From Pseudomonas sp. GM78 (GTDB lineage Bacteria > Pseudomonadota > Gammaproteobacteria > Pseudomonadales > Pseudomonadaceae), in contig NZ_AKJF01000094.1 of assembly GCF_000282475.1 (NCBI RefSeq), forward strand, positions 53,777 to 117,776: a stretch of 64,000 nt of DNA, read 5' to 3'. This document shows, piece after piece, positions 6,179 through 35,329 of this stretch (its first letter is position 1; every line of letters starts with the position of its first letter). The position numbers and the translations under genes are program-made. Below the pieces are notes generated by a model. The model did not search any database. It saw nothing but the letters and a program-made list of their open reading frames with translations, and had not been told where the DNA came from.

Positions 6179-8215
6179 CTAGAGGTCCTTGACCAGCCGC
6201 AGGGCATCGTAGATGGCCGCATGGGTATTGCGCGACGCCACGGCATCACCAATGCGGAACAACTGGAAGCGCCCTTCGGGGTTGCTCGCAACGGTTTGCG
6301 GCTTGCCGACAATCAGGTCCATGTACTCCACGGCGCCTTCGTTGCTGGCCAAGGGCTTGAGTTCGAAATACAGATCGTCCAGCGGCCGGGTGCCGTGGTT
6401 GACCACCACCTGATCCACCAGGCGTGTTTTAGTCAGGTCGCTGTAATCGGTGCCGATCGTAGCCAGCAATTGGTCGCCTTGTTTCTCCACAGCCTTGAGC
6501 CGGTAGGTGACGGTAAAGGTGGTGTCCAGTTGCTGCAACGAGCGCATATAGGGCACCAGGTTCATGCCCATGACTTCCGGCGCGAACGAGCGGTCGGGGG
6601 TCATGATTTCAGTCTTGGCGCCACTGCGGGCGATGAATTCGGCAGCTTGCAGGCCGGCGTGGTCGCCCGCATCGTCGTACACCAGCACATTGCGCCCAGG
6701 CTTCACGTCGCCGGAAATAATGTCCCAGCTTGAAACCAGGAATTGATTGCCGTGTTCCAGCACTTCGGTGTGCGGCATGCCCCCGGTCGCCACGATCACC
6801 ACGTCGGCATTTTCATCGAGAACAATCGCGGTGTCGGCCCAGGTGTTGAAGTGAAACGTCACGCCAAGGCGCTCGCATTGCGCCATGCGCCAATCGATGA
6901 TGCTGATCATTTCCTTGCGCCGCTCGGACTGCGCGGTCAGGCGAATCTGTCCGCCGGGTTTGTCCGCCAGCTCATACACCACCACCTCGTGGCCGCGCTC
7001 TCCCGCCACCCGTGCCGCTTCCAGGCCACCAGGGCCGGCGCCGACAATCACCACTTTGCGCTTGCGCGCAGCCTTGGGTATTTCATGAGGCATGGTGGTT
7101 TCACGCCCGGTCGCGGCGTTGTGGATGCAGTAGGCAGCGCCAGCGTTGTAAATGCGGTCCAGGCAATAGTTGGCGCCCACGCAAGGGCGGATATCGTCTT
7201 CACGGCCTTCGATGATCTTGCGCACGATATGCGGGTCGGTCATGTGCGCGCGGGTCATGCCGACCATGTCCACCAACCCCGAGGCAATGGCATGACGCGC
7301 CGTGGCCACGTCGGGAATTTTCGCTGCATGGAAGGTCGGGAAGCCGGTCAGCGCCTTGATTTCGCCGGCGAAGTCCAGGTGCGGGGCATTGCGCATGCCC
7401 TGGATCGGGATGATGTCGGTCAGCCCGGCATCGGTGGCGATGTTGCCGCGGATCACATTAAGGAAGTCGATCATGCCACTGTCTTTCAACAGTTGGGAGA
7501 TCTGCAAGCCCTCCTCTTTTTGCAGGCCCCCGGCGAGGACTTCGTCCCCGGTGTAGCGAATGCCGACGATAAATTCCGGGCCCACGCGTTTGCGAATGGC
7601 CGTGAGCACATCGAAGGTAAAGCGCAGGCGGTTTTGCAGCGAGCCGCCGTACGGCCCTTCCAGTTCGTTGGTCAGTGGCGACCAGAACTGGTCCATCAAG
7701 TGGCCGTAGGCTTGCAGCTCGATGCCGTCCAGGCCGGCGGCTTTCATGCGTTCGGCGGCATCGGCGTAGTCGCCAATGATGCGGTCGATGTCCCACTGTT
7801 CAAGCTGCTTGGGGAAGGCGCGGTGTGCGGGTTCCTGATTGTGGGAGGGCGACACCACCGGTAGCCAGTCGCCTTTGTCCCAGCGGGTACGCCGGCCCAG
7901 GTGAGTGAGCTGGATCATCACCGCCGCACCATGTTCGTGGCACTCGTCGGTCAGGTCTTTCATCCAGCCGACCACTTCGTCCTTGTAGGCCAGAATGTTG
8001 TTGAACACGGGCGGGCTGTCACGGGAGATCGCGGCGGAGCCAGCGGTCATGGTCATGGCTACACCGGCTTTGGCACGTTCAACGTGGTAGGCCCGGTAGA
8101 GCTTTTTCGGCATCCCGTCTTCCGGGTAAGCCGGTTCGTGGGAGGTGGTTATGATGCGGTTACGCAGGGTCAAATGCTTGAGGCGATAAGGCTGAAGTAG
8201 CGGATCGTTTTTCAT
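6179..8215 (-). CDS. FMN/FAD oxidoreductase of the TMADH/dienoyl-CoA reductase/DgcA family
   Basis: 678 residues in two parts. Residues 1-370 are an old-yellow-enzyme TIM barrel (HLMDQFWSPLTN at 172-183 and GPYGGSLQNRLRF). Residues 386-678 are an FAD/NAD-binding half with VGAGPGGLEAAR at 391-402. Relatives demethylate trimethylamine, dimethylglycine or N-methylproline, or reduce dienoyl-CoA. The iron-sulfur site is unusual: Cys345, Cys351 and Cys363 are present, but residue 348, a cysteine in trimethylamine dehydrogenase, is alanine. It is the first gene of the operon, 48 bp from the palindromic operator. Demethylation of an imported N- or S-methylated compound is inferred. Confidence 0.75.
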   Translation of the reverse strand: MKNDPLLQPYRLKHLTLRNRIITTSHEPAYPEDGMPKKLYRAYHVERAKAGVAMTMTAGSAAISRDSPPVFNNILAYKDEVVGWMKDLTDECHEHGAAVMIQLTHLGRRTRWDKGDWLPVVSPSHNQEPAHRAFPKQLEQWDIDRIIGDYADAAERMKAAGLDGIELQAYGHLMDQFWSPLTNELEGPYGGSLQNRLRFTFDVLTAIRKRVGPEFIVGIRYTGDEVLAGGLQKEEGLQISQLLKDSGMIDFLNVIRGNIATDAGLTDIIPIQGMRNAPHLDFAGEIKALTGFPTFHAAKIPDVATARHAIASGLVDMVGMTRAHMTDPHIVRKIIEGREDDIRPCVGANYCLDRIYNAGAAYCIHNAATGRETTMPHEIPKAARKRKVVIVGAGPGGLEAARVAGERGHEVVVYELADKPGGQIRLTAQSERRKEMISIIDWRMAQCERLGVTFHFNTWADTAIVLDENADVVIVATGGMPHTEVLEHGNQFLVSSWDIISGDVKPGRNVLVYDDAGDHAGLQAAEFIARSGAKTEIMTPDRSFAPEVMGMNLVPYMRSLQQLDTTFTVTYRLKAVEKQGDQLLATIGTDYSDLTKTRLVDQVVVNHGTRPLDDLYFELKPLASNEGAVEYMDLIVGKPQTVASNPEGRFQLFRIGDAVASRNTHAAIYDALRLVKDL

Positions 8216-8262
8216 ATCGGTCTCGCAGACAGGTCATCAGGCACGCCGACAATATGCCCCTG

Positions 8263-8299
8263 TGTACACCAGTGTCAATACTCTTGACACTGGTGTACA
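8263..8299. promoter_or_regulatory. Perfect 37-bp palindromic operator with overlapping promoter
   Basis: The arms TGTACACCAGTGTCA and TGACACTGGTGTACA (15 bp each, perfect) are separated by 7 bp, between the flavoprotein gene and the divergent TetR gene. Each arm supplies a TTGACA-like -35. On the minus strand TTGACA is followed 18 bp later by TATTGT, a plausible -10 for the catabolic operon. A TetR dimer pair bound here would block transcription. The binding protein is inferred from position. Confidence 0.8.
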
Positions 8300-9403: not shown

Positions 9404-11020
9404 ATGAACCACAACATTTTCTCTGCGGTGTTCGCAGCCACAGCGCTGCTGTCGGCGATCGCACTGCCTGGATTATCCCTGGCGGACGATAAAACGGTGC
9501 CAAACATACTGGTTATCATGGGCGACGATATCGGCTGGTCGAACATCGGTGTCTACAACCAGGGCATGATGGCCGGCAGAACACCCAATCTGGACACCCT
9601 TGCCTCCGAAGGCATGCGCTTCACCGACTACTATGCCGAAGCCAGTTGCACGGCAGGCCGTGCCAACTTCATTACCGGCGAACTACCGATCCGTACCGGC
9701 ATGACTACGGTGGGCCAGGCCGGCTCACCCATCGGTATTCCCTCCCAGGCGGTGACGATTGCCACCGTGCTCAAGTCCATGGGTTATTCCACCGGTCAGT
9801 TCGGCAAGAACCACTTAGGCGACCTGAACGAGTTCCTGCCCACCGTGCATGGTTTCGACGAGTTTTTCGGCTACCTGTATCACCTCGACGCCATGGAGGA
9901 TCCGGCCCACCCCAACTACCCGCAAGCGCTGCTGCCCAAGGTTGGCCCGCGCAACATGGTCCACAGTTGGGCGAGCACCACTGATGATGCAACCGTAATG
10001 CCGCGCTGGGGCAAAGTGGGCAAACAGAAGATCGAAGACGCGGGCACCCTCTACCCTGACCGAATGAAAACTGTCGACGACGAAATCCGTGACAAGGCAT
10101 TCAATTTCATCGACAAGGCCAAGCAGGACAACAAACCCTTCTTTGTCTGGCTCAATCCGACACGCATGCACATCGTCACCCACCTCTCCGACAAGTACCA
10201 GGCCATGCGCAATGCAGAAAATGGCTGGTCCGAACAGGAAGCCGGCATGGCGCAGCTCGATGACATCGTCGGCGATGTCATGGCCAAGTTGAAGAAAGAC
10301 GGCCTGGATCAAAATACGATCGTGGTCTTCACCACGGACAACGGCGCGGAAAACTTCACTTGGCCCGATGGCGGCCAGACGCCGTTTGCCATGGGCAAGG
10401 GGACTGTCATGGAAGGTGGCTTCCGCGCTCCGGCGATCATCCGCTGGCCGAACAAGGTACCCGCGGGGCAGATCGCTAACGGCATCATGTCGGGTATGGA
10501 CTGGTTTCCGACCTTCATCGCCGCGGCAGGCAACCCGAATATCACGAGCGAACTTCTAAAAGGCAAGCAACTGGGTGACACGACGTACAAGGTTCACCTG
10601 GACGGCTACGACCAAACCCCGATGATCACCGGCAAAGGTCCGTCCAATCGTCATGAAATTTTCTATTTCGGCGAAAGCAATTTGGGCGCGGTGCGTATCG
10701 ACGATTACAAGTATCGTTTCATCGATCAGCCTGACGGCTGGCTCGGTGCAAAGACCAGTATCGACGTGCCTGTTCTGACCAACTTGCGTCTGGATCCGTT
10801 CGAGCGCGCCGGATGGCCGCAAAACCAGGCGGCCAATGGCTCCATGCAGTACTTCGATTGGTTTAAATTCCAGTTCTGGCGCTTCGTGTTCGTTCAGCAG
10901 GAGGTTGCAAAACTGGCTGAAACGGCCATCGAGTTCCCACCGATGCAAAAAGGTGCGAGTTTCAACCTCGACTCGGTGAAAGCCAAGATCGAGGCCGCGA
11001 GAGCAGCGATGGCCAAGTAA
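9404..11020 (+). CDS. Exported sulfatase (arylsulfatase family)
   Basis: 538 residues from the ATG at 9404, which has AAAGGAG six bases upstream. The longer frame upstream lacks a ribosome site and would bury the signal peptide (residues 1-24, ending LSLA before DDKTV). The sulfatase fold is clear: MGDDIGWSN metal site near the N-terminus, and SCTAGRANFITGELP, whose CTAGR is a Cys-type CxAxR variant of the CxPxR motif converted to formylglycine. KNHLGD and FTTDNGAEN follow. It should hydrolyse sulfate esters in the periplasm to scavenge sulfur. No formylglycine-generating enzyme is nearby, so maturation must be supplied elsewhere. Confidence 0.9.
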   Translation: MNHNIFSAVFAATALLSAIALPGLSLADDKTVPNILVIMGDDIGWSNIGVYNQGMMAGRTPNLDTLASEGMRFTDYYAEASCTAGRANFITGELPIRTGMTTVGQAGSPIGIPSQAVTIATVLKSMGYSTGQFGKNHLGDLNEFLPTVHGFDEFFGYLYHLDAMEDPAHPNYPQALLPKVGPRNMVHSWASTTDDATVMPRWGKVGKQKIEDAGTLYPDRMKTVDDEIRDKAFNFIDKAKQDNKPFFVWLNPTRMHIVTHLSDKYQAMRNAENGWSEQEAGMAQLDDIVGDVMAKLKKDGLDQNTIVVFTTDNGAENFTWPDGGQTPFAMGKGTVMEGGFRAPAIIRWPNKVPAGQIANGIMSGMDWFPTFIAAAGNPNITSELLKGKQLGDTTYKVHLDGYDQTPMITGKGPSNRHEIFYFGESNLGAVRIDDYKYRFIDQPDGWLGAKTSIDVPVLTNLRLDPFERAGWPQNQAANGSMQYFDWFKFQFWRFVFVQQEVAKLAETAIEFPPMQKGASFNLDSVKAKIEAARAAMAK

Positions 11021-29471: not shown

Positions 29472-29846
29472 CGCCTTCCCTCCTCGCCAGGTTGGACCTC
29501 GACGCCTACCGCTCGTTTCTTCGCCTCGCGCATCCATAACAGCCGGTAACCCCGGGCCTACGGACAAGTTTAGATGCGTTGTTTGCGGCCCGTCGAGAAA
29601 GGCAGCAATCGGTGGACGGAGCGATAACGAATGAGTAGCTATGCTTGGTCTATTGCTGGAACTGATTGAGCAGATTGGGATTTGCGTCCATGGTGTATAA
29701 ACCCCTTCAGCGGTCACCAGACTGTCACAATGCCCGGCCTGGTCAGGGATAGACGACAGATTAAGGAATGTCATCCACCATGCCCGTGAAGGTGTTATCA
29801 CCCCACTTAAGGTCTATTTAGAGTCAGGCCCAAAGAGAGGTCCGCC
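29472..29846. other. Gene-free divergent intergenic region
   Basis: 375 bp between a minus-strand exported protein and a plus-strand membrane protein. Short frames here lack ribosome sites and protein-like composition. No clear operator, repeat or terminator was found. Confidence 0.5.
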
Positions 29847-30251
29847 ATGACCGTAGTCGATCGCCTCAGGTATTTGCGCGTCGTTCTGGTTTTGGCTGGC
29901 CTCGCGTGCCTTGCTCTCTACCCACTGATGTTTCTCTGGCCGTCCGGCTGGGCCTGGCACGTCGGTCACTCGGACTACCCGATGATGATCGTTGGCATCT
30001 ACGCCACACTTGGCGTGTTCTTGATCCTGGCCGCACGTGATCCATTAGCCAATTTGAGCCTGATCTGGTTCACCGTATGGTCCAGCGCCGTACACGGAGC
30101 AATCATGACCGTCCAGGCGGTCACCCAGCCGGGGCAAATGGGGCACTTGGCAGGTGACGTGCCGGCGCTCTTCATCGTGGCGGTTGCCTTGGCCATCTTG
30201 ACGCCTCGCTCGCAATTGGCCGACAGGCCCCGGACACACAATGGGGCCTGA
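29847..30251 (+). CDS. Small integral membrane protein (DUF6632-like)
   Basis: 134 residues with four hydrophobic segments (residues about 11-32, 45-63, 70-92, 105-120). AGAGAGGTCCGCC precedes the ATG. The pattern (YPLMFLWPSGWAW, MIVGIYATLGVFLILAARDP, WSSAVHGAIM) matches a family of uncharacterised bacterial membrane proteins that I recall as DUF6632. It is followed by the AT-richer block on the opposite strand. Function unknown. Confidence 0.75.
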   Translation: MTVVDRLRYLRVVLVLAGLACLALYPLMFLWPSGWAWHVGHSDYPMMIVGIYATLGVFLILAARDPLANLSLIWFTVWSSAVHGAIMTVQAVTQPGQMGHLAGDVPALFIVAVALAILTPRSQLADRPRTHNGA

Positions 30252-30455
30252 GAGCAGGTTTGACTGACCGTGCCCCCCTACTGTGCGAGACCGGGCGAGT
30301 ATCTCTTCTGGGACGGTACTCACCCGATTGTCGCTGGTCATAGCATCGTTGCGAAATGTGCAGCGGTCGCGCTCGGCATCAAGTGACCGCGTTCGTTTGC
30401 AAGACAGGTCGGGGCCGCCGATTGAAGTCAACCGGTGGTCAGGTGCAGCGACTGC

Positions 30456-30827
30456 CTATCGGACAATAGCCGGCAGTAGCTTTCTGGTCTTGATGTACGT
30501 GTCACTATCGCACCAAGTGAAAAGCACTTGTCCATTTTCATTATGTTTATCGTAGGCGATTTTTGAGTCATCCGGGCCGTCGACCTGCACCATGGTGGCA
30601 CCTGGAAATGCTTGTGCAATTCCCAATGATTTTTGCAACTCTTCAGCGTCGAATTTCCGATCAAACTCGCCATCAGTGTTCCCGTGAAAACCGTAATATA
30701 CCGTTATCGCCCCGGCATTTTTGATGAGTTCCTTGACTTTCTCCAGCTTTGGCGTGAATCCATCAACGTCAGTTTGGCCATCGTTGGTGAAAACGTTTTT
30801 CTCGTATCGAACAATTTCATCTGTCAT
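30456..30827 (-). CDS. Unrecognised 123-residue protein with His-Gly and Cys motifs
   Basis: No family was recognised. The protein is acidic and soluble, without signal or membrane segments. A beta-strand followed by His48-Gly49 (ITVYYGFHGNTDG) and a later strand with Cys106 (VLFTWCDSD) resemble, in order and spacing, the catalytic His and Cys sites of caspase-fold peptidases. The resemblance is by eye only, and the protein is short for that fold. GGAGTTTGTC precedes the ATG at 30827. Base composition is visibly AT-richer than the surroundings, as in the next gene upstream, which is on the same strand 98 bp away. Confidence 0.7.
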   Translation of the reverse strand: MTDEIVRYEKNVFTNDGQTDVDGFTPKLEKVKELIKNAGAITVYYGFHGNTDGEFDRKFDAEELQKSLGIAQAFPGATMVQVDGPDDSKIAYDKHNENGQVLFTWCDSDTYIKTRKLLPAIVR

Positions 30828-30925
30828 GACAAACTCCTTGACTTGACGCTTCTATAAAATCAATTGACCAGTGGACTCTTTCGTCCTGAGTCAACTTGCA
30901 GGGCGGCTCATTCACTCAAGCACCT

Positions 30926-31867
30926 CTACAACATGACCAATTCCTTACGTTTTGCCAGCACGAGTGCGGCATTATTTTCCGCCTTCAACAACTTCTTCTG
31001 GTTGATCAGCTCGGCAGTCTCGGAAATTTTCGTGTTGATTTCCTTAATCATTTCTTCGAGGGCAATGAAGTCGGATTTGTAGTCTGCGATAGCAGCCTTC
31101 AGATCCCCCTTGTTCTTTGTCTTGTAGTCGGCAATCGCCATGCCATGAACTTGCTGGCTCAGATCTCCGACCGCCCCTTCAAGGTCATTTTGCTGGGAAA
31201 TAAGGCCATTGATTCTGTCGAAGTTGGCAAGTGCACGTGCTCGATCGACCGACATCCGAACATCGTAGATGTAGAAGTTTTGAACAATGATTTCACTATT
31301 GAAGAAATCTTTGCTACTGAACTTGTTCTCCATCACGCAAACGAACATGCTCATCCCTGGAATGATGTCCTTTTGCACAATCTGCTTGGACAAGTCGGTT
31401 TCCGTCCCGGTCTTGATGGCGGAAAGAATCCCTGTGATGGCCTGAAAGGCTGCATTGGCGATGATTGCTTCGGTTCCGGCCATCATTGTCAGAAGATTTT
31501 GCGTCGTCGGCGAGATGGTGCTTCCCTTGGCAGCGGTAGCTGTAGGAACCTTGTCGTCCTTTTCGCCTTGCGTCGGCGGCATGTCTAAGGCTTTCCCTCC
31601 AAAGACAGCCGTGCGAACGTTTTCGATCATATCGACCACGTTGCTGAGCGACCACGTCGAAGCGGTTGCCAGGTGTTGGTATGACCCGCTTGCCAAAGGT
31701 TGGGCATCGTCCCATTTTCCGTCTGCGTAGAACTTCTTGATCTGCGCATCCAAAACTTTTTGGGCTTCTGCCGCAGTTTTGTCCAGTTCTGTGTTTCTTT
31801 CATCGATGTATTTTTGAAATGCGGTGTTTTCCTGGCCTATTGCTTTGATGTCTGTTGAATGTCCCAT
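30926..31867 (-). CDS. Unrecognised 313-residue mainly helical protein
   Basis: The start at 31867 (MGHSTDIKA) has AGAGG upstream; a longer frame at the 5' end is AT-rich junk. There is no signal peptide. Layout: residues 10-60 amphipathic helix; 125-155 a hydrophobic helical stretch (LLTMMAGTEAIIANAAFQAI, then TGILSAI); 165-200 a beta-like patch (MFVCVMENKF); and 215-313 a long coiled coil. This resembles the general plan of alpha-helical pore-forming toxins, but no family was recognised. It lies between the tandem-HTH regulator and the 123-residue protein, all on one strand. The low GC suggests acquisition. Confidence 0.7.
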   Translation of the reverse strand: MGHSTDIKAIGQENTAFQKYIDERNTELDKTAAEAQKVLDAQIKKFYADGKWDDAQPLASGSYQHLATASTWSLSNVVDMIENVRTAVFGGKALDMPPTQGEKDDKVPTATAAKGSTISPTTQNLLTMMAGTEAIIANAAFQAITGILSAIKTGTETDLSKQIVQKDIIPGMSMFVCVMENKFSSKDFFNSEIIVQNFYIYDVRMSVDRARALANFDRINGLISQQNDLEGAVGDLSQQVHGMAIADYKTKNKGDLKAAIADYKSDFIALEEMIKEINTKISETAELINQKKLLKAENNAALVLAKRKELVML

Positions 31868-32009
31868 TTGAATCAAACCTCTCTGCAGATCGTTGATAAG
31901 TAAATGGTGAATCCCCTCTTTGCGTCGCGGAACCCAACGGGTCCCGCAACGCACTTTCAATCTATAAGACGATAGCGAGACTTCAAATACCTCCGATGTC
32001 GTAGGTCGC

Positions 32010-32417
32010 CTACTCGTAAAGTGCAACAAGCTGCCCGATGCTGCGAAGGTTTAGCTTGCGCAACAGATTCTCGCGGTGCTTGCGGACAGTGAGATCGGCG
32101 ATTTCAAGCAGTCTCGAGATGTGCTTGCTTGTGTGTCCCTGGATTACCAGTTTCATCACCTGGAGTTCCCTGGCCGACAGGACATCGTACAATGGGCGCT
32201 CAATTAACTTCGGCAAGTAGTTCTGCTGCCTGGCGTTTTCAATCAATTGCCTGGCATTCCGGAATCCCGCTTTGCGGAGCATGTTGCGACGGTGCGTCTT
32301 GACTGTAAACTTACTGATGGCAAGCTCGGATGCGATTTCCCGGCAAGATAAGCCCCTTGCCATCAAATGAAGAATTTCTATCTCGCGCCGTGTCAGCGGT
32401 GGCCGCTGGTCATTCAT
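32010..32417 (-). CDS. Regulator made of two tandem LuxR-type HTH domains
   Basis: 135 residues from the ATG at 32417; longer starts up to 32474 are possible but have poor ribosome sites. Two complete LuxR-type helix-turn-helix domains lie back to back: residues 8-62 (LTRREIEILHLMARGLSCRE, then FTVKTHRRNMLRKAGF) and 79-133 (LSARELQVMKLVIQGHTSKH, then LTVRKHRENLLRKLNL). There is no receiver, autoinducer or other sensory domain. A protein of this shape might bind DNA as an intramolecular pseudo-dimer. It is immediately upstream of the two unrecognised genes and probably controls them. Confidence 0.85.
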   Translation of the reverse strand: MNDQRPPLTRREIEILHLMARGLSCREIASELAISKFTVKTHRRNMLRKAGFRNARQLIENARQQNYLPKLIERPLYDVLSARELQVMKLVIQGHTSKHISRLLEIADLTVRKHRENLLRKLNLRSIGQLVALYE

Positions 32418-32616
32418 CGCACGGATCCGCCAGTAGCCGAAATGCCGCTGCATCACCCTGCTGAATAGATTCAAATAGGCTTATTGCCGCGACGAAGCGC
32501 AGTGCCAGCACTGGCTGAGGCGTTACGCAAGCACGCCACTGCGCCTCGGCGAAGGCGAGAAGAGCTGATCCTCCCTTACGATTCAGAAGGGGTTCGAGAA
32601 AGGCTTTTCCATGCAC
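32410..32616 (-). CDS. Possible small ORF overlapping the tandem-HTH start
   Basis: A 68-codon frame whose stop overlaps the regulator ATG (GCGATGAATGA), as translationally coupled genes do. The C-terminal half (LALRFVAAISLFESIQQGDA) reads like protein. No convincing ribosome site precedes its ATG and no family is recognised. It may be a leader peptide or the decayed N-terminal part of a longer LuxR gene. Confidence 0.3.
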   Translation of the reverse strand: MHGKAFLEPLLNRKGGSALLAFAEAQWRACVTPQPVLALRFVAAISLFESIQQGDAAAFRLLADPCDE

Positions 32617-32718
32617 TTGAAGAAGCTCCCTACCCCCAGATCGTCTTTATCGCATCGGAGCCATACGCGCAGACCTGCCCGCCCGCAAAAACGAGCTTTT
32701 TGAAATGGAAGTCATCTC

Positions 32719-33150
32719 ATGTTCGAACGTAACAAACTGGTTCCAGAGTTAATGGTCACCAACCTGGGTAGTAGCCTGGCTTTTTGGGTTTCTCGCCTGG
32801 GGTTCAAAGTAGCTTATCAACGCCCGGAAGATGGATTTGCATACCTTGATTTGAATGGTGCTCAGGTCATGCTTGAGCAGGTTGATTCGGGTGCGGGTCA
32901 ATGGCTGACTGCCCCGTTGACCAAGCCGTTTGGAAGAGGCATCAACTTGCAGATTGATGTTGAGGCTGTTGCACCCATCATCGAAAAACTTGATCAGGGT
33001 GGATATCCACTCTATCGAGAATGTAAAGACACCTGGTATCGAGCTGACAATGTAGAAGTAGGTCAGCGCGAATTCATCGTCCAGGATCCCGACGGTTATC
33101 TCATAAGGTTGGTAGAGCGGTTGGGTGAACGAGCGGCTTGCTCAATATGA
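32719..33150 (+). CDS. VOC-family (bleomycin-resistance-like) protein
   Basis: 143 residues. The vicinal-oxygen-chelate fold is visible as two beta-alpha-beta-beta-beta modules: VPELMVTNLGSSLAFWVSRL, GFAYLDLNGAQVMLEQ, then INLQIDVEAVAPIIEKLDQG and REFIVQDPDGYLIRLVERL. Proteins of this size bind bleomycin-type drugs or act as small metalloenzymes; the ending DPDGYLIRL is shared by bleomycin-resistance proteins. TGGAAG precedes the ATG. It is AT-richer than average, like the block to its left. The ligand is unknown. Confidence 0.85.
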   Translation: MFERNKLVPELMVTNLGSSLAFWVSRLGFKVAYQRPEDGFAYLDLNGAQVMLEQVDSGAGQWLTAPLTKPFGRGINLQIDVEAVAPIIEKLDQGGYPLYRECKDTWYRADNVEVGQREFIVQDPDGYLIRLVERLGERAACSI

Positions 33151-33166
33151 ATCTGAGCCAAGCCGA

Positions 33167-33223
33167 CCGTCAGCTATGGGTCGGCTTCTACCGGTCACGA
33201 TAGGCAGAAACCGGGCAAAAGCG
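33167..33223. repeat. Dispersed intergenic repeat, copy B
   Basis: Module 1 (33167-33194, CCGTCAGCTATGGGTCGGCT, then TCTACCGG) shares 23 of 28 bases with 9166-9193. Module 2 (33196-33223, ending GGCAGAAACCGGGCAAAAGC) resembles the reverse complement of 9137-9164. It sits between the convergent VOC and GlxA-type regulator genes. Confidence 0.6.
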
Positions 33224-33238
33224 GCCCCTGACGCAACA

Positions 33239-34195
33239 TCAAACCGCTGAAAACCGCTTTCGATAATCACTTGGCCCCACGCCGAGTCGCCGCATGAACG
33301 CCCTTCTGAACCCGTCCGTATTGGCATAGCCGACGGTATCGGCCAAGCGCTTGAGTGATACGTCCGAGTCTTCGATCAGTCGTCTGGCCGCATCGATACG
33401 TGCCAGTTCGACGAATTGCGCCGGGGTCGAGCCGGCTTCGGCCTTGAAGGTTCGGGCGAAGTTGCGCTCGCTCATACCGGCGTGGGCGGCCAGGGCGGGG
33501 ACGCTCAAGTCGGCTTTCAAGTGCTGCACAACATAATCCTGTACATCCCTGATCACGCTGCGTTCGGCAGTTTGCGCCGCCAGTTGGGCGCTGAACTGCG
33601 ATTGCCCACCAGGACGCTTAAAGAACATCACCATTTCACGGGCAACGCTGAGCGCCAGTTCCCTGCCGTGGTCCTCTTCAACCAGCGCCAGCGCAAGGTC
33701 CATGCCGGCGGTCACACCTGCCGAGGTGTAGACGTTGCCATCCTTGATAAAGATGCTGTCCGGATCGACGTGGGTTTGCGGGTTTTCCTTGGCGAGTTTT
33801 GCACTGGAATTCCAGTGGGTGGTGACACGACGTCCGTCGAGCAGGCCTGCGGCGGCAAGCAGGAATGCACCGCTACAGACTGAGCCAATACGGCGCACGG
33901 ATGCCGCCTGCCGGCGCAGCCAATCCTGCAGTAAAGGGTTCTGGGCGATTTCATCGATGTGCGGGCTGCCTGCAACCAGCAAGGTGTCGATCTTGCCTTT
34001 ATAGGTTTCGAAGGTCTCGTCGACGCCTATCTTCAAACCGCTTGAGCCTTTGATCATGCCCTTTTCGGTACCAATGACCTCGACCCGATAGGCGCGTGGA
34101 TTACCGAGTTGCCTGGCCGCTTCGGCAAAGACGTCGGCGGGCCCTACGACGTCCAGCAGTTGCACGCGAGGGAATGCAAGGAGCGTGATGCGCAT
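33239..34195 (-). CDS. GlxA-family (DJ-1/PfpI plus AraC) transcriptional regulator
   Basis: 318 residues. The DJ-1/PfpI domain covers residues 1-190 with the nucleophile elbow IGSVCSGAFLLAAAGLLDGR followed by RVTTHW. The AraC domain covers 215-315 with LSVPALAAHAGMSERNFART and LKRLADTVGYANTDGFRRAF. It is divergent from the TDT-type channel gene at 34311 and probably regulates it. The 116-bp gap contains CAGCCAACTTCTGTTTGGCTG (34250-34270), two inverted CAGCCAA halves that could be its operator. Confidence 0.88.
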   Translation of the reverse strand: MRITLLAFPRVQLLDVVGPADVFAEAARQLGNPRAYRVEVIGTEKGMIKGSSGLKIGVDETFETYKGKIDTLLVAGSPHIDEIAQNPLLQDWLRRQAASVRRIGSVCSGAFLLAAAGLLDGRRVTTHWNSSAKLAKENPQTHVDPDSIFIKDGNVYTSAGVTAGMDLALALVEEDHGRELALSVAREMVMFFKRPGGQSQFSAQLAAQTAERSVIRDVQDYVVQHLKADLSVPALAAHAGMSERNFARTFKAEAGSTPAQFVELARIDAARRLIEDSDVSLKRLADTVGYANTDGFRRAFMRRLGVGPSDYRKRFSAV

Positions 34196-34249
34196 GATGT
34201 CTGTCCTCGTCGAATCATTGGCTGAATACGTCGCTTAAAGACTATTTCA

Positions 34250-34270
34250 GCCAACTTCTGTTTGGCTGAA
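34250..34270. promoter_or_regulatory. Possible operator between GlxA-type regulator and channel gene
   Basis: CAGCCAA and TTGGCTG, perfect 7-bp inverted halves seven bases apart, sit in the divergent promoter region, 41 bp before the channel gene start. The bound protein is inferred to be the divergent AraC-type regulator. Confidence 0.45.
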
Positions 34271-34310
34271 AATAGCCCCAACAGCAAATTCAGTCAAACG
34301 GGAGACTGCC

Positions 34311-35312
34311 ATGAACACTGCATACACCCCCACCGTCGCTGCGGCTCAACCAGTAACCGGCAGCACGACATCGATCAAGAACCTGCCCATCAATCTGTTC
34401 GGTTCAGTCATGGGCCTGGCCGGCCTGGGACTGGCCTGGCGCTTGAGTGGTCAGTATTACGGCGTCGGCGGCCTGTTGGGTGAAGCGATTGGTGCACTGG
34501 CCGCCCTGGTATTCGTGCTGCTGACCTTGGGTTACCTGGGCAAATGGATAAAACATCCAGCAGCGGTAAAGGCCGAGTTCAACCACCCGATCGCCAGCAA
34601 CTTTTTTGGCACCGTCACCATTGCACTGTTGCTGCTGTCGGCAGTCGCCGCCCCCCACAGTCAATTGCTCGCAGAGGCTCTGTGGATACTGGGCAGCGCA
34701 CTGACGGTGTTGCTCGCAGGCCTGGTGGTTTCCCGTCTGTTGTCGGGCAATCAGGATTCGTTGAATGCCGTACCTGCCTGGCTGATTCCAGGTGTTGCCA
34801 CCCTCGATATCGCGGTAACCGGTGCGCATATGCCCATGGCCTGGGCTGCCGAGTTCAACCTGTTTGCCCTCGCCGTGGGTGCGGTGCTGGCGCTGGTGTT
34901 CTTCACCCGGATTTTCTCGCGGCTGGTGCATGAGGCCGCGCTTGCCAAAGGCATGGTGCCTTCGCTGATGGTCCTGATTGCACCCTTTGAAGTCGGCTTT
35001 CTGGCGTACACCAACGTGTTCGGCGAGATCGACCGATTTGCCAGCGTGTTGTTCTATTTCGGCCTGTTCCTGTTCGTGGTGCTCGGTTTCAAAGTGTTCC
35101 GTCGCGATGTGCCCTTTGCCCCTTCGTGGTGGGCCATCAGCTTTCCCATCGCGGCCCTGAGCAATGCGGCGCTGAAATATGCACATGCCCAGGACAACAC
35201 CGTGCTGATGGTCATCGCTGCTGCGATTCTGCTGTTCCTCACCGTGGCACTGACCGTACTGATGGTCAAAACCCTGGGCAGCCTGTTCAGCGGCAAACTG
35301 TTGGCCAACTGA
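34311..35312 (+). CDS. TDT/SLAC1-family membrane channel or exporter (TehA-like)
   Basis: 333 residues with ten hydrophobic segments. The family pattern is NLPINLFGSVMGLAGLGLAW near residue 24, HPIASNFFGTVTIALLLLSA, then IPGVATLDIAVTGAHMP and KGMVPSLMVLIAPFEVGFLA. These match tellurite-resistance/dicarboxylate transporters (TehA, Mae1, SLAC1), which pass anions or organic acids. GGGAGACTGCC precedes the ATG. It is followed by a strong terminator and divergent from a GlxA-type regulator. Substrate not evident. Confidence 0.85.
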   Translation: MNTAYTPTVAAAQPVTGSTTSIKNLPINLFGSVMGLAGLGLAWRLSGQYYGVGGLLGEAIGALAALVFVLLTLGYLGKWIKHPAAVKAEFNHPIASNFFGTVTIALLLLSAVAAPHSQLLAEALWILGSALTVLLAGLVVSRLLSGNQDSLNAVPAWLIPGVATLDIAVTGAHMPMAWAAEFNLFALAVGAVLALVFFTRIFSRLVHEAALAKGMVPSLMVLIAPFEVGFLAYTNVFGEIDRFASVLFYFGLFLFVVLGFKVFRRDVPFAPSWWAISFPIAALSNAALKYAHAQDNTVLMVIAAAILLFLTVALTVLMVKTLGSLFSGKLLAN

Positions 35313-35329
35313 CCTTTTACCTCCCTTTG

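Follow-up and report, generated by a model that had tools for sequence, protein, structure and literature searches.

The three genes analysed here follow one another on the minus strand of the window, by which we mean the whole 64,000-nucleotide stretch of DNA, taken from the 7.29-Mb genome of a Pseudomonas-like bacterium; among 24 plasmid records matched by the copper genes, the top three were from Pseudomonas. They encode a regulator with two helix-turn-helix (HTH) domains (32010..32474), a mostly helical protein of 313 amino acids (aa) (30926..31867) and an acidic protein of 123 aa (30456..30827). The open reading frames (ORFs) confirmed the gene order given in an earlier note on this sequence, which had drawn the block at 30456..32616; the right end given there, 32616, lies in a different frame. 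The helical protein was found to represent a family that is absent from Pfam, NCBIfam, PHROGs, PADLOC and PDB as searched, and the members of this family pair with different second genes.

Features and Distribution of the Helical Family

The gene of the 313-aa protein starts with ATG and is preceded by a Shine-Dalgarno-like AGAGAGG (31878..31884, minus strand, read by eye); no signal peptide was apparent by eye in its product. When it was compared with the Variovorax copy, a nonsynonymous divergence (dN) of 0.144 and a synonymous divergence (dS) of 1.57 were obtained, indicating a real gene under purifying selection. A single hydrophobic segment was located at residues 125-151 (31415..31495, minus strand); the hydrophobic helix described in the earlier note was thereby recovered as a segment, but of moderate strength only (Kyte-Doolittle value of 1.45 over 19 residues). 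The 19-residue hydropathy maximum fell in the equivalent region in 9/9 members examined. Downstream of this segment lies a conserved stretch (DIIPGMSMFVCVMENKFSSKDFF..., residues 167-206; 31250..31369, minus strand), followed in the family alignment by long C-terminal helices. By eye, the conserved stretch is probably beta-rich; the AlphaFold2 model, a poor one (mean predicted local distance difference test score, pLDDT, of 37.9), showed mostly long helices and no beta structure visible in this stretch, and nothing else was drawn from it.

Searches of Pfam, NCBIfam, PHROGs, PADLOC and PDB gave no significant match for either the 313-aa or the 123-aa protein, in agreement with the earlier remark that neither product belongs to a recognised family. 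The best matches of the 313-aa protein were all sub-threshold (Pfam E 0.012, below the curated cutoff; PHROGs 0.011; PDB 0.49), and NCBIfam and PADLOC returned none. A profile of the helical family gave 43 matches in PDB, mainly coiled coils and other unrelated proteins. Nothing naming the family was found in the literature within a few narrow term searches.

Rare and patchily distributed, the family was found in 10 lineages from Pseudomonas-like genomes, Variovorax and its taxonomic family, and Rhizobium plasmids. A short-pattern scan of 84,980 species genomes yielded one relative, that of Variovorax sp. YR216. Profile searches were then carried out in sets of genomes that overlap and are each a sample. 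Members were present in 5/398 genomes of the source genus (the source itself, the same-species genome G702, G563, G597 and G600), in 3/299 genomes of the family of Variovorax (G532, which is YR216, G960 and G1075) and in 2/101 genomes of the genus Variovorax (YR216 and G1221). Beyond known members and matches to the coil only, none was found among 398 genomes of the phylum, 340 of the class, 144 relatives, 120 relatives of G960, 115 relatives of G600 and 42 genomes of the genus of G1075. Coil-only matches, covering just the C-terminal part, were not counted as members (G372, G320, G401, G1172, G1174, G1320 and G1554). Helical relatives were also found in 10 Rhizobium plasmid records, one of which covers 47% of the query; a second Rhizobium match in record W01 was dropped as a short C-terminal piece of an interrupted copy. 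The viral contigs gave no match for the helical queries, and the phage collection none for the relative from G600.

Met1-Gly2 was invariant in a nine-sequence alignment of the family, in which several starts had been picked by fit to the family, and G1221 also shows the Met-Gly start provided that an internal ATG is its start codon. N-myristoylation of this start was considered and rejected: the PROSITE myristoylation pattern bars H, K or R at position 3, and most members break this rule.

Second Genes Found Beside the Helical Gene

The 11 members placed in the tree served as the rows for all partner counts. In the window and in G702, the partner is the 123-aa protein. In YR216, the helical gene is followed by a gene for a protein with an HExxH motif (HEGRH), and a protein with the same motif is encoded beside the helical gene of G1221, there on the opposite strand, so that the pair is divergent. 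HEGRH is identical in the two proteins. The HExxH protein matched only DUF6782, a putative metallopeptidase family, at an E value of 0.15, below the cutoff, while its second copy had no match. G1221 carries in addition a 184-aa gene after its helical gene (L032:9437-9991), helix-rich by eye, and, farther on, a 270-aa frame (L032, approximately 10001-10813) whose end looks by eye like a LuxR-type HTH.

A third kind of partner was recognised by an HG...C order of residues, in three members from two independent lineages. G600 and G597 encode proteins of 151/153 aa with VAHG...SSC or STC, and Rhizobium TA1 encodes a 141-aa protein upstream (VGHG...AC) of a helical gene that has been cut short by an insertion sequence. 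The Rhizobium protein matched Peptidase_C80 weakly (E = 0.18, below the curated cutoff), and this match was absent from the two Pseudomonas-like proteins; across lineages the similarity was weak (the Rhizobium protein gave p = 0.029 with one of the Pseudomonas-like proteins and 0.21 with the second).

In G960, the helical gene is followed by a gene for a single LuxR HTH and then by an 88-aa RING finger (L022:9878-10144). This partner matched zf-RING_2 (PF13639) at an E value of 1.4e-7, with 32.1 bits against a cutoff of 27.3, and its best PDB relatives were the E3 ligases Arkadia and CBL (E 1.6e-4); no other partner has a firm family assignment. The G960 genome, of the family of Variovorax, measures 3.3 Mb. 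The partner in G563, 196 aa long, belongs to no family; genes for an amidase and a GH19 enzyme come after it. No partner was recognised in Rhizobium Tp73 or downstream in G1075, in which a 253-aa gene lies upstream, with a double LuxR HTH in two frames farther upstream; the 253-aa product looks secreted by eye. As a separate observation, the G563 run of 196-aa orphan, N-acetylmuramoyl-L-alanine amidase and GH19 enzyme (L019:5963-8025) resembles a lysis or release cassette.

Protease-like motifs are thus the commonest recognisable partners, being present beside 5/11 members (HG...C in 3/11 and HExxH in 2/11). Together with the lack of a signal peptide apparent by eye, this favours the chief rival explanation, a gasdermin-like suicide pair in which the adjacent protease would cut and thereby activate a dormant, cytoplasmic helical killer upon phage attack or stress. 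PADLOC was run on 81 neighbouring ORFs, made up of 79 of the 123 proposed and two short ones. Members of the helical family, transposases and frames that were probably spurious had been removed from the set, which still contained at least one ORF read in the wrong frame. No complete defence system was found near the helical genes among these ORFs. Eight families were matched at E values up to 1e-10; seven of them correspond to ATPases of ABC transporters, to sigma-54 activators and to the HTH regulator of the window, and mad2, matched by one ORF, was not mapped. Moreover, neither the 313-aa nor the 123-aa protein had a match in PADLOC or a significant one in Pfam; the latter protein cannot be recognised as a protease, and a RING finger would be a poor activator. 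We hold a suicide pair of this kind to be somewhat unlikely.

Possible Exchange of Partners

Like helical proteins were found with different partners, and like partners with different helical proteins. The helical proteins of the window and YR216 are 77% identical, and their second genes, for the 123-aa protein and the HExxH protein, are unrelated; DNA similarity between the two loci is confined to 30938-31828, that is, to the helical gene. Conversely, the HExxH proteins of YR216 and G1221 share 81% identity, as against 27% for their helical proteins. On the tree, the HExxH label requires two changes, and 0/200 bootstrap trees allow one; G1221 and G1075 form long branches, so their placement is unsure. 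The mismatch between the partner and helical identities is the sole argument that the HExxH gene may have been transferred.

The 123-aa protein also occurs apart from the helical family. A full-length homologue of 59% identity was found in one viral contig, the 22-kb IMGVR_UViG_3300048928_000422, where it follows an unrelated protein, 290 aa long in the form searched and 268 aa if begun at the first ATG. This protein had no Pfam or PDB match and no profile similarity to the helical family, and it adjoins a flagellin fragment, as read by eye. In the same contig (L050/L051), the orphan of about 268 aa and the 123-aa homologue stand between truncated flagellin-like and phosphatase-like genes, both named by eye. 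The viral contigs held no match to the HExxH and HG...C proteins.

Since the helical and 123-aa proteins each occur with other partners, the locus is better described as a modular cassette than as a fixed trio. The earlier note had suggested a regulated two-component effector and had made the joint travel of the three genes a test of it. A two-component effector is still plausible, but outside the species the joint occurrence fails: the helical and 123-aa proteins have other partners, and next to the closely related helical gene of Variovorax the window's regulator is missing. Within the species, the three proteins are 98-99% identical to those of the other genome, with dN below dS.

These comparisons bear on the possibility that either protein is a toxin against which the other serves as immunity protein or antitoxin. 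The arrangement, with a small gene immediately following that of a helical protein which has a hydrophobic segment, recalls the pore-forming type VI effector Ssp4 and its immunity gene (PMC12669606). The second gene, however, does not track the first: it is unrelated in the locus whose helical protein is 77% identical, and in the viral contig the first gene, ahead of the 123-aa homologue, is an unrelated one. Enzyme-like and RING partners would also be unusual as antidotes. For these reasons a toxin with its antidote appears very unlikely here.

The two genes might also be chance neighbours, each an independent cargo of a recombination hotspot. The site is indeed variable, its left neighbour being followed by different genes in all four further copies examined; the order and spacing of partners vary, and the pair is divergent in one Variovorax. 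Against this, two distant members of the helical family have the HExxH protein as a neighbour and three have HG...C proteins, and the window's pair is kept in the same-species genome. We consider mere neighbourhood quite unlikely, although less so than an antidote.

The 123-aa Acidic Protein

The 123-aa gene (minus strand) is preceded by a Shine-Dalgarno-like AAGGAG (30834..30839, minus strand, read by eye). Its product was described earlier as acidic, and this was borne out by a count of 21 D/E against 15 K/R. Two residues were kept in the one distant homologue and are candidate catalytic residues: His48 of a conserved YYGFHG motif (30684..30686, minus strand) and Cys106 of a conserved FTWCDSDTYI motif (30510..30512, minus strand). 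The best matches of the protein were sub-threshold in Pfam (E 0.12, below the curated cutoff) and PDB (0.26), and no match was obtained in PHROGs, NCBIfam, PADLOC or the phage collection. An AlphaFold2 model from the single sequence reached a mean pLDDT of 49.0, and a fold search with this low-confidence model returned 807 matches at E values up to 10, none of them at 0.001 or below (best, 0.057). A caspase-like or C80 peptidase assignment was considered for this protein and left unclaimed: the conserved pattern YYGFHG...FTWCDSD hints at one, but no profile match was obtained, and the protein aligned with the HG...C proteins no better than shuffled sequences did.

Regulators Near the Helical Genes

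The regulator of the window is 154 aa long and read from a TTG start, with an ATG at residue 20 possible. Pfam GerE was matched over two stretches (E = 1e-35), and a sensor domain was absent from the Pfam matches listed, so the earlier description of a double-HTH, sensorless regulator was upheld. In the window, G960 and G1075, LuxR-type HTH genes are found next to the helical gene or close by. In G600 (E 2.3e-6) and G597 (E 6.5e-7), the genes upstream of it encode HTH_3 domains of the Cro/C1 type, both matches being above the cutoff. Altogether, HTH regulators are beside or near the helical gene in 5/10 lineages, with the window and G702 counted as one. In G1075 (L023, approximately 7580-8290), the two LuxR HTH domains upstream of the helical relative lie in adjacent frames and resemble those of the window's regulator; they represent either a double-HTH gene that has been split or two genes that overlap. 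A scan for promoters and terminators gave nothing exceeding shuffled sequences.

Composition and Edges of the Locus

The GC content of 30456-32616 is 49.7%, compared with a mean of 60.1% (standard deviation 3.0) over 619 overlapping sliding windows, and none of the 619 was as low. The AT-richness noticed earlier was confirmed. The limits of an AT-rich block with variable edges (30267..32654, no strand) were set by the GC minimum and by the ends of similarity. On the left, three of the five other copies of the neighbouring gene stop matching at the same base, 30266; one of these is a further copy within the source genome, and the other two come from genomes of the genus. In the two most diverged copies, similarity ends earlier, at 30209 and 30116. 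On the right, G702 matches the window from 29784 to 32654 at 98.5% and is divergent beyond. Because of its low GC content and because similarity ends at 30266 and 32654, the block, which sits in a variable place, was probably acquired, as the earlier note had suggested. Only short imperfect matches were found when integration repeats were sought at the block edges.

The left neighbour is a 134-aa gene (29847-30266) that resembles an insertion hotspot. Its second copy, on contig C199 of the same genome, comprises residues 34-134 and has one in-frame stop. Just beyond the block, the gene at 32719-33150 is AT-rich too (GC 49.1%), and the region 32655-35324, with a VOC-like gene, a GlxA-type regulator and a permease, is unmatched in the stretch of G702 compared.

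A Proposed Two-Component Toxin

We tentatively propose that the two structural genes could encode one variant of a two-component toxin of the mix-and-match kind. The 313-aa protein, mostly helical and by eye leaderless, would be the membrane-active part, and its hydrophobic segment could enter a membrane and perhaps contribute to a pore. The small downstream protein may act as an exchangeable second part, probably an enzyme, working with or through the helical part. The upstream LuxR-type regulator would gate expression of the pair, and the putative toxin would then be released from the cell. The likely target would be a eukaryotic neighbour such as a plant, fungus or protist. RING E3 ligases ordinarily require a ubiquitin system, and it is for this reason that the RING finger near one relative suggests such a target.

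Several results weigh against this proposal. As to membrane activity, the hydrophobic segment of the 313-aa protein is weaker than a classical transmembrane helix; across the family the 19-residue Kyte-Doolittle maximum is weak in eight members (0.77-1.46), reaching 2.17 in one, and the 25-residue maximum lies elsewhere in one member. AlphaFold2 modelling of the 313-aa protein, from an alignment of 2 sequences, failed. When the nine-member profile was searched against all PDB chains at E values up to 10, no alpha-pore-forming toxin (alpha-PFT) was named among the matches; for the pore-forming or cell-death pair that the earlier note thought possible, no sequence link to known pore formers was obtained. 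As to the partners, two of the 11 members are without a recognisable one and one has a partner of no family; the enzyme labels of second components, RING excepted, come from motifs. In G960, the LuxR gene stands between the helical gene and the RING gene, which could be an unrelated neighbour. The 123-aa protein showed no significant similarity to the three HG...C proteins in shuffle tests (p 0.32-0.50) or by hhalign. As to exchange, all partner labels together take six changes on the tree, the minimum for seven states, and parsimony would be compatible with an ancestral HExxH partner replaced elsewhere.

The proposal can be widened to a combinatorial platform, one absent from the libraries searched, in which helical membrane translocators with the conserved Met-Gly start would deliver interchangeable enzymes into plant, fungal or protist cells. 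The cargos would include two peptidases, one caspase-like and one zinc-dependent, as well as a RING ubiquitin ligase of eukaryotic type, and recombination would reshuffle carriers and cargos across Pseudomonas-like bacteria, Variovorax with its family, and Rhizobium. In this wide form we regard it as unlikely.

If the mix-and-match toxin is real, a small set of two-gene cassettes would have a putative membrane protein and partner enzymes swapped among distant bacteria, and either the binary toxins or the suicide systems of gasdermin type would gain a family outside the searched databases. The pairings found in nature would further provide material for asking if the carrier sets delivery and the partner sets effect.

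Comparison with Known Systems

The alpha-PFTs of the ClyA superfamily (ClyA, XaxAB/YaxAB, Nhe/Hbl, MakABE and AhlABC) are, like the 313-aa protein, mostly helical with long C-terminal helices, and at about 300 aa they are near it in size. A mid-protein hydrophobic element is likewise shared, and multi-component members exist; ClyA-like toxins are built on a five-helix bundle with a variable inserting region (PMC6162564). Unlike in this superfamily, the partners of the helical family are small and unrelated rather than alpha-PFT subunits, although one more gene of G1221, of 184 aa, seems by eye to be rich in helix; sequence similarity was undetectable in the PDB profile search. The likeness to ClyA is an analogy from size and predicted helices.

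Pore-forming effectors of the Ssp4 type, which are delivered by the type VI secretion system, resemble the helical family in being helical, initially without known relatives and accompanied by a small downstream gene, in Pseudomonas too (PMC12669606); the downstream gene of the helical family, in contrast, is not conserved with the first gene. In Peptidase C80 and the caspase-like peptidases (clan CD), the order HG...C is the same as in three of the partner proteins, and the Rhizobium protein adds its weak C80 match. That match is below the cutoff, however, and the HG...C proteins bear no significant similarity to the 123-aa protein.

With respect to gasdermins, the partners of the helical family include a RING finger and the 123-aa protein, the regulators are of LuxR or XRE type, and no complete defence neighbourhood was recognised, all of which are differences. 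The gasdermin family was absent among the Pfam, NCBIfam and PADLOC matches at E values up to 1, the gasdermin models of these libraries being unchecked. Bacterial gasdermins are often encoded beside caspase-like and other proteases (PMC9612521), and the likeness lies in this layout, namely one putative pore former with varied caspase-like and other proteases as neighbours.

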